Assembly: GCA_903896615.1 (NCBI GenBank)
Contig: CAITYM010000036.1
Location: forward strand, 1 to 64,000
Direction of reading: 5' to 3'
DNA from: an uncultured Burkholderiales bacterium
GTDB lineage: Bacteria; Pseudomonadota; Gammaproteobacteria; Burkholderiales; Burkholderiaceae_C
DNA: 64,000 nucleotides
Position numbers and translations under genes: made by a program. The notes under the pieces were generated by a model. That model was not told the origin of the DNA, did no database searches, and saw only the letters and a program-made list of their open reading frames with translations. Shown here piece by piece: positions 1-4,853 of the stretch. The stretch's first letter is position 1. Each line of letters begins with the position of its first letter.

Positions 1-1304
1 GCGCTTAACTGACTCAGCGCCTTCGTATTGATTGCAGCCACTTGCGCGGTGGTGAACGCTTGAATGAGACCTGTACTCAGTCCTGAGATTTGAACTGAAT
101 TCAACACACCAACCACGGAACTTGACAGTACCGCAGCTGCTTGACTCGTTAATGCTCTTAACTGTGCTGAACTCAATGCTAAGGTTTGACTCGTGGTCAA
201 CGCAAAAGCTTCTCCGGTTGTGAAGCTATTGATCTGAGCGCTAGACAGTTGAGCTAGGGCAGCATTATTCAGTTGTGCAATCTGTGTCCCACTCATCACA
301 GGGATCAAAACAGTGCTTAGACCAGCAATTTGCGATGAATTAAGTGCTGCTATGACAGATGTAGTGAGTTGTAAGACAGTAGCCGTTGTGAATGCCGCGA
401 TTTGACGAGACGAGAGTGCACCGGCTTGGGTTGATGAAATCTGCGCTACCAGTGAGGTCGTGAGGTTTGATATTTGAAGTGTTGTTAAAGCCTGTATGTC
501 CGCAGTACCCAGTTGACCCCATTGATTTGTTGACAACACACTGAGCAAATTAGTCGCAAGTCCAGTAATTTGGTTGGCCTGCAACGCCGAAATTTGTCCC
601 GTCCCCATCGCAATTACATCGCTCGTGGTGAGCGCATTAATTTGTGAAATGCTGAGCTGACTCAGTGCACTCGTATTCAACGCAGCAACCTGCGCAGTAG
701 TAAGGACGGGCATCAATGACGGGCTTAGGCCTGAAATTTGGGCTGAATTAAGCACAGCCATTACGGAGGTTTGTAGCGCAGCCACTGCACTGGTACTCAG
801 GGCTGCGACTTGTCGAGCCAAAAAAGCGCTGGCTTGTGATGTCGTAAGTGTGTTAGCGATTGTCGAGGAAAGACTCGACAACTGAGAAGCAGTCAACGCC
901 TGGATGCCAGCGGCGCTTAGCTGTGCTAATTGCGAAGTGCTAAGCGCATTTATTACATCCGAACGGAGTCCAGCAATTTGAATGGTACTTAGTGAGGCGA
1001 CTTGAGTTGTCGTAAGTGAGGATAAAACTTGGGTACTCAAAAAAGAGATTTGAGAACCTGTGAGTGCTAAAAGTTCACTAGAGGTGAAATTTATAACCTG
1101 CGTAGCGTTAAGACTTGCTAATTGGGCACTGTTGAACCCCGTAATTTGGTTCGTCGCCAATGACTGGATCTGCGTCGTTGTAAGTGCAGAAATAAAACCC
1201 GTGTTCAGGCCCTGGATGGTTTGCAAACCCAGTGCTTGGATAGCCGTGGTACTAAGGCTTTGTACCTTCGAGCTATTTAACGAATTTAAAGATGAAACAG
1301 TCAT
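1..1304 (-). CDS. Octad-repeat protein, N-terminal part (partial, runs off left edge)
   Basis: An open frame from ATG at 1304 runs leftward off the window with no stop. The 434 visible residues are almost entirely an 8-residue tandem repeat: 54 octads plus 2 residues, with no insertion or deletion. The consensus is L-[ST]-[ST]-x-Q-[IV]-x-[AG], for example LTTAQVAA and LNSSQIAG. Octads are also arranged in a higher-order block of 17 (136 residues, 408 bp). There is no signal peptide, no Cys and almost no charge. The next in-frame stop upstream is at 1353-1355 and no strong Shine-Dalgarno precedes the ATG. From memory, similar Leu/Thr/Gln repeats occur at the N-termini of very large predicted surface or secreted proteins in Burkholderiales. 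The function (adhesin or structural protein) is inference, because the C-terminal part that would tell is outside the window. Confidence 0.8.
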   Translation of the reverse strand, partial: MTVSSLNSLNSSKVQSLSTTAIQALGLQTIQGLNTGFISALTTTQIQSLATNQITGFNSAQLASLNATQVINFTSSELLALTGSQISFLSTQVLSSLTTTQVASLSTIQIAGLRSDVINALSTSQLAQLSAAGIQALTASQLSSLSSTIANTLTTSQASAFLARQVAALSTSAVAALQTSVMAVLNSAQISGLSPSLMPVLTTAQVAALNTSALSQLSISQINALTTSDVIAMGTGQISALQANQITGLATNLLSVLSTNQWGQLGTADIQALTTLQISNLTTSLVAQISSTQAGALSSRQIAAFTTATVLQLTTSVIAALNSSQIAGLSTVLIPVMSGTQIAQLNNAALAQLSSAQINSFTTGEAFALTTSQTLALSSAQLRALTSQAAAVLSSSVVGVLNSVQISGLSTGLIQAFTTAQVAAINTKALSQLS

Positions 1305-2112: not shown

Positions 2113-2922
2113 TCAAGTAACCCACTGCTCAAACGTCTTAAATTCAAATTGCTCAAAGCGGTTTCGTGGAATCAAAACACTTAATCCACTTATTTGAACG
2201 TGTGTGATTGAGGTAATTAAATTATCCAACCTATCTCTAAGATCTAGGTCTGGGCACACCCAGATAACGCCGTCAAAATCCCCTCTTTTTAAGGCAAGTA
2301 GATAGTCACACAAAATTGTGGCATATCTAGGTTTTGACTTAATGGTTCTTTCGCATTCAATACATACCCTTTTACCTAGTGGATTTGTACACCAGGCATC
2401 TGGGCGGTGTTCGCTTTGTATTTGGGCGTTTGTATTTGATCTCAAATTTAGACGTGAATTTGAACTTAAAACACTCGCTTCTAGATTGATTTTTTGACCC
2501 GTATCGGCATTCACCCAATTAGTCCAACCCGCCCGCTCAGCCCGAATTCTAAGCAACTGAATATCTAATCGGTGAGGTATGAATGTTGGGGATATTCGCG
2601 CAGTCAGTGGATTAGGCTTGGGAACTAACTGTGCAAATTCAGAAGGCGTTGTCTGAGTCCTAAATAGTTGTTTATGACCTAAACTGGTTATACCAAATAG
2701 TTGGACTGTACCGCCCATAATCTTTTGCAGCACACTTTTAATTGTCTTGGCTACAACCATGGGCCTCAAAACCCCCAGAAGTGTTCGTCTACTTATTTGT
2801 AATAACACGCATAAATTAACATCACTCGCCCAAGACTCCTGAGCTAAAAAGCTAAGCATCTGCAATTCAAGATCAGACCTACTCGGTTTAAAGAGTTGGA
2901 ATTGTGAATTTAACGTATTCAA
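2113..2922 (-). CDS. MOB_C / replication-relaxation-like DNA-processing protein
   Basis: 269 residues. The N-terminal 80 residues look like a winged-helix DNA-binding domain. The rest carries spaced motifs of the MOB_C relaxase (CloDF13 MobC) and replication-relaxation superfamily: HRLDIQ at 117-122, RPDAW at 173-177 and IECERTIKSKPRY at 188-200. The Asp and the Glu-x-Glu...Lys arrangement recalls a PD-(D/E)xK nuclease core. Such proteins nick or process plasmid or ICE DNA at the transfer origin. Its ATG overlaps the stop of the upstream coupling-protein gene by 4 bp (ATGA), so the two are translationally coupled, as with the mobB/mobC pair of CloDF13. The exact activity is inference; a plain DNA-binding accessory protein is the alternative. 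Confidence 0.6.
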   Translation of the reverse strand: MNTLNSQFQLFKPSRSDLELQMLSFLAQESWASDVNLCVLLQISRRTLLGVLRPMVVAKTIKSVLQKIMGGTVQLFGITSLGHKQLFRTQTTPSEFAQLVPKPNPLTARISPTFIPHRLDIQLLRIRAERAGWTNWVNADTGQKINLEASVLSSNSRLNLRSNTNAQIQSEHRPDAWCTNPLGKRVCIECERTIKSKPRYATILCDYLLALKRGDFDGVIWVCPDLDLRDRLDNLITSITHVQISGLSVLIPRNRFEQFEFKTFEQWVT

Positions 2923-4853
2923 ATTAACTCCCCTGGCTCTTTGGGTGCCGAGCGTAAATTACGAGGAGATTCGGTGGGTTGTAGCAATGAGCCTGATACA
3001 ACGATGGGCGATAAACTAAAGAGCTTGGCCAACCCAAGACCAAAGAGCACGCCCGCTGTAAAGGGGGATGAGGCCTGACTTGGACGGTGTAAGTGCAGAA
3101 ACAGATCAGCGCTCATACGCGGATGCTGGATTTCAGTCCAACTTTTCTGAGCATCTAAAGTCCCTGGACCCGGTCTAATCGACTCCTTATATGTTCTTTC
3201 TTGACCTGATTTATTTGCAAATCCCTTTGCTGCCTGGTCATCTCCAATACGAAATATTAGTTTTAAGGTTGCGTTATCTACCACAACGGGCTCAACATCC
3301 TTTCTCTCAAGACCAGGGCAACCCGCCAAATCAGCTAAAGACTGGTGGGCTAAGAGTGCATGACACCCCAACTCACGAACCACGCCTAGCATATCAAGAG
3401 CAACGGGGGAGAGTAAGTGTTTAAACTCATCCAAAATCAAACAAACAGGCTTTACGGGTAGTGTATGAGCGGATAACTTTAACGAGATCCTTGATTTAAC
3501 AATTTGAAGAATACGGATTAAAAGCATAGTTTGAAGCATTTTCACGCGGTGATTATCTGTGCTACCCCGGATGTAGATCACACTGCCCTTTTGAATATGC
3601 TCCATCAAACCAATATTGTGTGCGGTTTGTATCACCCTAAGATCACAGACTTGCCTTAATCGTCTCACAAAATTATCTGCCTTAGAGAGTTGTTTGTGCG
3701 ACTGCGCTATCTCTAGTAATCGGGGTAAGGTCACCGCTTGGCTAAAAGAACCTTGCAACGCAAGTTTAGAGACCTGCTCAGCAGCATCTTGATCAATCCC
3801 TCTATAGTAGTTACCTTCGCCACTAGAAGGTTGTAACCCAAGTCCAGCGACCAAAAGCTCTTCAATTTCTAAATCACTAGCTCCCTCCAATAGATTGAAC
3901 TGAGAGACCGCATGAGCTTGTAAATCCAAATAGATAAACTCTGCACCACTTTTCAAAGCACCTTGCGAGAGCACCAAAGGAAGTCGCCCATCCCCCTTAG
4001 GATCGAATACGATTAAAGATTCCCTCTTGAGTGCAAACTGATACCCCAAGACCCCAAGAGCAATTCCTTTACCGCTCCCAGTGGAGCCAAGTATTTGAGC
4101 ATGCGTTTCCTGGAAAAGTAGCCAAGGAACATACAGTGGCTTAGCCAACTGTTGATCAGACTTAGGATCCAAAATATTTTGAGGACTCTGCGGATTGTGT
4201 GAATTTTGCAGGCCCACAAATACACCTTGACTCAGATCTATGTATGACAAAGGATCAAATGCCTGCATTGACGTAAATAAGAGTTCCATATCACCAATGT
4301 CTCTAAGACCTGCGCCGAGGGCACGAGTACGGAAAAAATAAAATATACCCAGACGGGCACTAAGACCACCCAGTAAAGCAACCGTTATGGGCAGTACGCT
4401 CACAAACAAAATATGAGCTGTTATGAAACTATCATTATTCGAAGTGGCAGTAGATAACTGATTCGCTGCGAATTTATTTGCAAGTCTGGGTATTTGAAGG
4501 AATGGTAACCAAACCGTTGCATCCTTGTAGTATTCAAAAAAACCGTACACCATCACAAGGATTCCATTTAATTGAATAAAATGGAATAATATTCTGATTA
4601 AATTTTCATGATTAGTGGGGTGACTATGTCTCATAGAACTCCTCACACCCCCTATAACCAGCATCAAACTACCTATAAATGAAATTAGCAATGTGCTGTA
4701 TAAATTGTGTTGCGTGAGCAAACTGTTGCAATGGACAGTGCCAGTTAGACAATCATAGTTTGAAATAAAGTGATCATTAGCTTGAAAGACAGTCAGGGCT
4801 TGGGGGGGAACATCCGGCACGACCACGGTTTGACTTGGCAGGGGAATTACCAA
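2919..4853 (-). CDS. VirD4/TraG-type conjugative coupling ATPase (MobB/TraD-like)
   Basis: 644 residues. Three probable membrane segments lie in the N-terminal third (about 53-70, 91-106 and 145-170), followed by a cytoplasmic ATPase domain. Walker A is GSTGSGKG at 256-263, followed by FDPKGDGRLP, and Walker B is CLILDE at 471-476. The segment LLAHQSLADL (500-509) matches the conserved glutamine-containing motif of coupling proteins. These hexameric ATPases hand relaxase-bound DNA to a type IV secretion channel. Translation starts at a TTG with no obvious Shine-Dalgarno. It is followed with a 4-bp overlap by the MOB_C-like gene. No secretion-channel genes are in the window, so this is either the edge of an integrative element or a mobilisable remnant. 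Confidence 0.8.
   Translation of the reverse strand: MVIPLPSQTVVVPDVPPQALTVFQANDHFISNYDCLTGTVHCNSLLTQHNLYSTLLISFIGSLMLVIGGVRSSMRHSHPTNHENLIRILFHFIQLNGILVMVYGFFEYYKDATVWLPFLQIPRLANKFAANQLSTATSNNDSFITAHILFVSVLPITVALLGGLSARLGIFYFFRTRALGAGLRDIGDMELLFTSMQAFDPLSYIDLSQGVFVGLQNSHNPQSPQNILDPKSDQQLAKPLYVPWLLFQETHAQILGSTGSGKGIALGVLGYQFALKRESLIVFDPKGDGRLPLVLSQGALKSGAEFIYLDLQAHAVSQFNLLEGASDLEIEELLVAGLGLQPSSGEGNYYRGIDQDAAEQVSKLALQGSFSQAVTLPRLLEIAQSHKQLSKADNFVRRLRQVCDLRVIQTAHNIGLMEHIQKGSVIYIRGSTDNHRVKMLQTMLLIRILQIVKSRISLKLSAHTLPVKPVCLILDEFKHLLSPVALDMLGVVRELGCHALLAHQSLADLAGCPGLERKDVEPVVVDNATLKLIFRIGDDQAAKGFANKSGQERTYKESIRPGPGTLDAQKSWTEIQHPRMSADLFLHLHRPSQASSPFTAGVLFGLGLAKLFSLSPIVVSGSLLQPTESPRNLRSAPKEPGELI

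Follow-up and report, generated by a model that had tools for sequence, protein, structure and literature searches.

A probable type I-exported ALTTAQ-repeat protein from a Burkholderiales bacterium, with a predicted short-helix solenoid fold

The window, by which we mean the whole 64,000-nt stretch and not the repeat gene, carries at its very beginning, on the minus strand, the first 434 codons of a gene for an ALTTAQ-repeat (PF20080) protein; this gene (3..1304, initiator Met at 1302-1304) runs off the contig end. It had been noted earlier that this gene encodes an unbroken 8-residue repeat of 54 octads starting at the Met, and translation and register counts bear this out. Indeed, the minus strand of positions 1-1304 is stop-free over all 434 codons, which comprise 54 whole octads plus two residues in a single register from the initiator Met with zero indels. 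The first residue of the octad is Leu in 43 of 54 units (otherwise Phe in 6, Met in 3 and Ile in 2), the fifth is Gln in 27/54, and the sixth is Ile, Val or Leu in 45/54. The phase-consensus score reaches 196, a value that 2000 shuffles do not approach (highest score 106), and the best phase holds 44 L versus 19 in shuffles. At the DNA level, identity is 0.37-0.47 when the array is shifted by multiples of 24 bp (25 such lags), versus 0.21-0.28 at five control lags, so the array is old and diverged rather than a product of recent slippage. The fragment contains 30% Ser+Thr, 11 charged residues and neither Cys nor His. The absence of a signal peptide, also noted earlier, was confirmed: no hydrophobic N-terminal segment occurs in the first 60 residues, where the top 19-residue Kyte-Doolittle mean is 0.84.

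Orthologous N-termini were found in two genomes, with 56.5% identity over 248 aa in G012 and 52.2% over 178 aa in G026, and both begin at the equivalent Met. Three orthologue pairs gave pN of 0.25-0.28 versus pS of 0.68-0.78 (dS 1.80, 2.50 and saturated), indicating that the repeat protein is under purifying selection. Since base 1 of the window is also base 1 of contig C36 (114,892 bases), the gene is cut by the end of the assembly; both orthologues are likewise cut by contig ends. Complete relatives range from 1383 to 2437 codons, and the 434 residues read from the truncated window gene are probably the start of a very large protein, the size that the earlier note had proposed and that is still the most likely one.

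The minus strand also carries, upstream of the repeat gene, a gene for a 269-aa protein of no known family (2113..2922, minus strand), without Pfam match. It is kept in both orthologous loci found, as a 57% identical homologue in G026 and, by eye, as a similar-looking ORF at the same place in G012. Next to it is a gene for a lone TraG/TraD-like coupling-protein ATPase (2919..4853, minus strand; PF12696, PF10412 and PF02534 over cut-off). In a set of 61 genomes, composed of the own genome, 36 others of the genus and 24 from other families of the order, this ATPase occurs in three (G000, G012, G026) and was not found in the other 58; the same three genomes are those with a recognised orthologue of the window repeat gene among the loci compared. 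The ATPase and its 269-aa partner (window 2113-4853) adjoin the repeat gene in all three. No type I secretion system (T1SS) gene was seen beside the window gene, and no flagellin gene lies beside it in the first 20 kb of the window.

The octad was at first thought to match no named repeat, an assumption that does not hold and whose failure the earlier note had listed among its grounds for refutation: the window sequence is a new member of the Pfam family PF20080, "ALTTAQ repeat" (E 3.2e-42, 142.4 bits, cut-off 26.4, 19 stretches), and the window repeat itself shows no difference from the family octad. NCBIfam gave no match, and some weak stray Pfam matches to octads, e.g. CAAP1, appeared in paralogues. 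PF20080 was matched in 22 of the 61 genomes, all 22 in the own genus. Across the phylum, 25 of 299 genomes (own included) match it at E 0.001, 16 of them in the distant family f61, where ALTTAQ frames reach at least 6436 codons among the matches listed; the viral contigs scanned contained no relative. In the genus, G022:C29 carries a frame of 6361 codons of ALTTAQ octads that reaches the end of the contig without a stop; a flagellin gene lies about 3 kb away. The family thus has a name, and a search of the literature by that name found neither a paper naming it nor a described function; nothing on the family was found in the literature on octapeptide or 8-residue solenoids.

Several paralogues are present in the own genome. 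N-terminal ALTTAQ fragments lie on contigs C36 (window), C63, C162 and C60, each running off the contig end, and C-terminal fragments on C95, C28 and C13; C95 carries two ALTTAQ genes, the first of which is the C-terminal fragment. The four gene starts together with the second C95 gene imply at least five ALTTAQ genes. Complete relatives (L108, L110, L111, L115; 1699-1726 aa) combine the C162 type with the C13 type, so these two fragments appear to be the start and the end of a single gene. A pairing of C60 with C95, both of a flagellin/TPR neighbourhood, is at most plausible, and C36 may pair with C28 or with the type of G012:C112 and G026:C1, whose downstream genes were found near the start of contig C158 of the own genome. 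No suffix-prefix overlap of 12-399 bases occurs between the ends of the N- and C-fragment contigs of the own genome. Presence and absence as a key to the C36 partner was dropped, as G074 also carries the G012:C112/G026:C1 type, and synteny via HMG-CoA lyase showed differing neighbourhoods in other genomes, which gave no aid in joining the genes.

The paralogues reveal how such proteins can end. A domain like the self-processing module (SPM) of FrpC is present at all 14 C-terminal ends fetched from four genomes: G000 (4), G026 (5), G012 (1) and G074 (4). Five aligned C-terminal domains match the SPM of FrpC in the PDB (6sjw, 6sjx) with E 1.3e-31 over 160 residues, which identifies the paralogues' domain as an SPM homologue. 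Excerpts of PMC7078468 describe the FrpC SPM as a module that folds in response to calcium and cuts between Asp414 and Pro415, and excerpts of the same paper and of PMC5233953 describe SPM from type I-secreted RTX proteins. A profile search of 48 loci yielded 24 distinct genes with an SPM-like domain, gene copies in two loci being counted once. Unlike the FrpC module, the relative sits after an octad array and has Thr/Ser-Pro instead of the scissile Asp-Pro: in the 23 genes with a readable junction (one gene is cut off), this is Thr-Pro in 13, Ser-Pro in 10 and Asp-Pro in none, though Asp-Pro relatives may be under-represented in this count because most loci were found with motifs of the same subfamily. 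At least one calcium loop, the one beginning at D462 in FrpC, is replaced, and others are partly kept (ligand positions as given in PMC7078468). Judging from these residues, the C-terminal SPM relative of ALTTAQ proteins should not cleave itself. Since all 14 ends from the four genomes carry the domain, the window gene probably ends in an SPM-like domain as well. In G003, G006, G015, G032 and G073, complete ALTTAQ genes lack an SPM-like domain and terminate in repeats or in short tails. Pfam gave no match to the RTX nonapeptide repeat in five C-terminal and one N-terminal sequences (threshold E 0.1) or in the window fragment (threshold E 1).

Candidate exporter genes adjoin some of the relatives. 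Two genes that lie downstream of the C95 pair in the same orientation encode an ABC exporter, which has a C39-like domain, and a protein of the HlyD family (Pfam matches ABC_membrane, ABC_tran, C39-like and HlyD_3). This exporter is 97% identical in G026 and 95% identical in G074, in both adjoining ALTTAQ genes, and its best match in nine other genomes given has 29-33% identity; the best HlyB match of seven ALTTAQ-carrying genomes of the genus has only 29-33%. HlyB/HlyD were matched in 5 of 26 scanned ALTTAQ loci, a set to which the locus of the window gene does not belong. A similar arrangement is observed in the distant family f61, where L206, L207, L211 and L213 have HlyB/HlyD immediately upstream of ALTTAQ genes and in the same orientation. 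All 16 f61 genomes given, each carrying ALTTAQ, have an HlyB match, with best identities of 39-53%. In genus g102, a related HlyB, 45-46% identical over its full length, shares the contig with ALTTAQ in at least 6 of 9 genomes. In genus g115, no HlyB of at least 32% identity lies on a contig with ALTTAQ in any of 7 genomes, among the matches listed, and G149 of this genus has a 31% identical HlyB on the ALTTAQ contig, about 45 kb away. Three further PF20080-matching genomes (G276, G279, G313) gave no HlyB at E 1e-100, and G355 has an HlyB match of 36% identity. Type I secreted RTX giant adhesins resemble the ALTTAQ proteins in their large repeat array, the lack of an N-terminal signal and, for some members, the nearby HlyB/HlyD; the ALTTAQ proteins differ by alpha-helical octads and by the lack of an RTX calcium repeat (Pfam, five C-terminal sequences). 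Collectively, these gene arrangements moderately support an export of ALTTAQ proteins by type I secretion, and the gene neighbours of its relatives suggest that the window protein is probably exported by this route too.

An alternative is that the protein stays in the cytoplasm as a scaffold, with partners bound along the solenoid. In its favour are the missing hydrophobic N-terminal segment, the TraG-like ATPase and, by eye, metabolic genes that adjoin the window gene, and the 21 of 26 scanned ALTTAQ loci without an HlyB/HlyD match. However, the SPM was described, in the excerpts cited above (PMC7078468, PMC5233953), from type I-secreted proteins, and HlyB/HlyD adjoin ALTTAQ genes in two distant lineages, so that we consider an intracellular scaffold unlikely. 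Still less credit is given to another export route, for instance the flagellar export apparatus. Flagellin matches occur in 11 of 37 ALTTAQ loci of the genus, and FlaG-like and FliD-like genes were recognised by eye in L067 and L158; but the flagellin number is a raw count over loci of unequal length, and the T1SS linkage in a distant family is a more direct clue, which leaves the flagellar route improbable and type I secretion as the preferred one. As to the loci themselves, flagellin genes adjoin ALTTAQ genes in L062:1-3809, L066, L067, L158, L157 and L142, some of which also contain TPR or glycosyltransferase-9-like genes.

The earlier note had advised a structure prediction of 20-40 octads. 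AlphaFold2 was run on window residues 1-200 (25 octads) with a 62-row alignment in octad register, made of 4 rows from the window and 58 from loci of relatives, out of 159 candidate pieces; column cover was uneven, with a mean of 46 rows and down to 2 at some positions. The resulting model has a mean pLDDT of 95.6 and a pTM of 0.86, and it consists of one short helix per octad, with 24 helices of at least 4 residues and one of 3 in the 25 octads and zero strands. A single-sequence model was of low confidence (pLDDT 62.3), and a fold search with it returned nothing at E 0.001 or better. The best PDB sequence match is HeliScrew4 (9zem; E 9.1e-10 with the window protein, 9.9e-29 with the profile), a protein of 120 residues whose name suggests that it was designed; no paper was found under the name HeliScrew. 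Its octads align with the window octads in register over 108-110 residues, and therefore this class of octads has a solved structure. In the fold search with the alignment-based model, mesothelin 7ued comes first and is the sole match to reach E 0.001 (Foldseek E 3.8e-4, probability 1.00, TM-score 0.44, rmsd 9.1). According to excerpts of PMC10035497, mesothelin is a right-handed solenoid whose 24 short helices are arranged in nine layers. Mesothelin (7ued, 8cx3) shares with the octad model the short-helix solenoid architecture, with about 2.7 helices per layer versus about 3.4 octads per turn here, and the window fragment gave no Pfam match to the mesothelin/stereocilin family up to E 1; we read the resemblance as the same kind of architecture and not as membership. 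With one short helix per unit and a spiral winding predicted, and with the sequence match to HeliScrew4, an alpha-solenoid of short helices is a well-supported model of the fold. A leucine-rich repeat (LRR)-like solenoid with strands, suggested by a leucine spacing that resembles that of LRRs (24 residues being 3 octads), by Pfam LRR_EndoS (18.2 bits in the window, under the cut-off of 27.9, and 29.6 bits, over it, in one paralogue) and by sequence matches to many LRR chains (best E 2.2e-4 with the window protein, 1.4e-19 with the profile), was rejected as highly improbable, since the window stays under the cut-off, the confident model is strandless, HeliScrew4 is ahead of the LRR chains and none of the 50 listed fold matches is an LRR protein by title; because the model has no strand, the matches to LRR chains are put down to a common leucine spacing.

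The arrays of the genus contain, in addition, a longer period. Within 25 arrays (2875 octads), octad identity is raised at lags of 7, 10, 17, 24, 27, 34 and 41, which are near-multiples of 3.4 octads. C63 and C162 were left out of this set because neither, out of 19 proteins, gave an array of 25 octads. Thr at position 3 has its spectral peak at 3.39 octads, with a power of 5.03 versus a maximum of 2.02 in 100 shuffles. Fifteen features were examined in these arrays. For five of them (Thr at 3, hydrophobic at 4, Gln at 5, hydrophobic at 5, Ile at 6) the highest peak falls at 3.39-3.45 octads and exceeds all shuffles; for three more it falls in this range without exceeding all of them, and for another two it is at 2.41, which corresponds to the folded second harmonic. 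Per-array peaks spread from 2.99 to 3.96 octads in a search band of 2.94-4.0, so not every array shows the pitch, and block duplication adds to the period signal in some of them, e.g. G022:C29 at 6 octads.

The same period is found in f61, where 27 arrays (4144 octads) combine a strong 2-octad period with one of 3.4 octads; L206 and L207 of this set look near-identical and are not independent, and L208, the single f65 locus given, yielded no array for the f61 spectrum. There, Thr at 3 peaks at 3.42 octads with a power of 7.27 versus 1.95 in shuffles, and Gln at 5 has a power of 4.15 versus 1.89; the 3.4-octad period is present in 3 of 7 features and absent in 4. By eye, two octad types alternate at the array ends of L204, L205 and L209 (f61, genus g115), in agreement with the 2-octad period of f61. 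When the window alone was tested in a band of 0.285-0.300 cycles per octad against 2000 shuffles, Thr at 3 gave p = 0.0035, the value for Gly at 8 was reached in 0 of 2000 shuffles and Asn at 2 gave p = 0.045; Gln at 5 (p = 0.14) and hydrophobic at 5 (p = 0.16) were not significant in the band. A 17-octad duplication unit, suggested by lags in the window only, was discarded: the lags 7, 10, 17, 24 and 27 taken together, and their recurrence in other proteins, fit a 3.4-octad pitch better. Weighted estimates of the pitch are 3.39-3.43 octads, i.e. 27.1-27.4 residues per turn. We hold, with moderate to good confidence, that this sequence period reflects a real superhelical pitch. With a pitch of about 3.4 octads, the 54-octad part of the array in the window would amount to about 16 turns.

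These elements can be assembled into one explanation, which we regard as reasonably probable: the large ALTTAQ protein would be an alpha-solenoid screw that is exported by type I secretion, carries a non-cleaving SPM-like end and forms an extracellular rod. Each octad would provide one helix of 4-6 residues and a short turn, and successive helices would wind into the screw with about 3.4 octads per turn. The protein, made without an N-terminal signal, would leave the cell by type I secretion; the array would end in an SPM relative that has lost the scissile Asp-Pro and may fold on export. The Ser/Thr-rich, weakly charged surface of the screw would then be exposed on a long surface or extracellular rod, whose likely role could be that of a spacer or adhesin, as weakly suggested by the great length and by the Pfam matches of the paralogues, among which no enzyme domain is convincing. 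Together, the predicted fold and pitch, the C-terminal domain and the candidate exporter make the role of this family directly testable. Moreover, the octad is a very simple unit from which, by prediction, rods of whatever length can be built, and as such it may interest protein designers.

A wider reading is more tentative, and we would expect it to fail in some part rather than to hold as a whole: ALTTAQ proteins could be a class of surface or extracellular rods, unbroken alpha-helical screws of fixed pitch, exported by a T1SS subtype that goes with them in distant lineages; their SPM relative would have changed from a self-cleaving module to one that serves folding or anchoring without cleavage, and some of the rods would be tied to flagella. 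If this is true, the rods have 17 octads per 5 turns, with about 27 residues per turn, and reach in the genus the length of the 6361-codon open frame of G022. In the literature searched, no prior description was found, for the ALTTAQ family, of the pitch, the degenerate SPM end or the T1SS linkage.

Two further kinds of genes were observed beside relatives. L065:13759-16368 (G015) and L066:12162-14720 (G032) encode, by eye, related-looking Ser/Ala-rich proteins of 852-869 aa beside ALTTAQ genes. A putative 2OG-Fe(II) oxygenase (PF13759; L060:1697-2284, on C63 of the own genome) is present in 4 of 10 genomes given and adjoins the same ALTTAQ paralogue in each of these four; possibly, it modifies the repeats.
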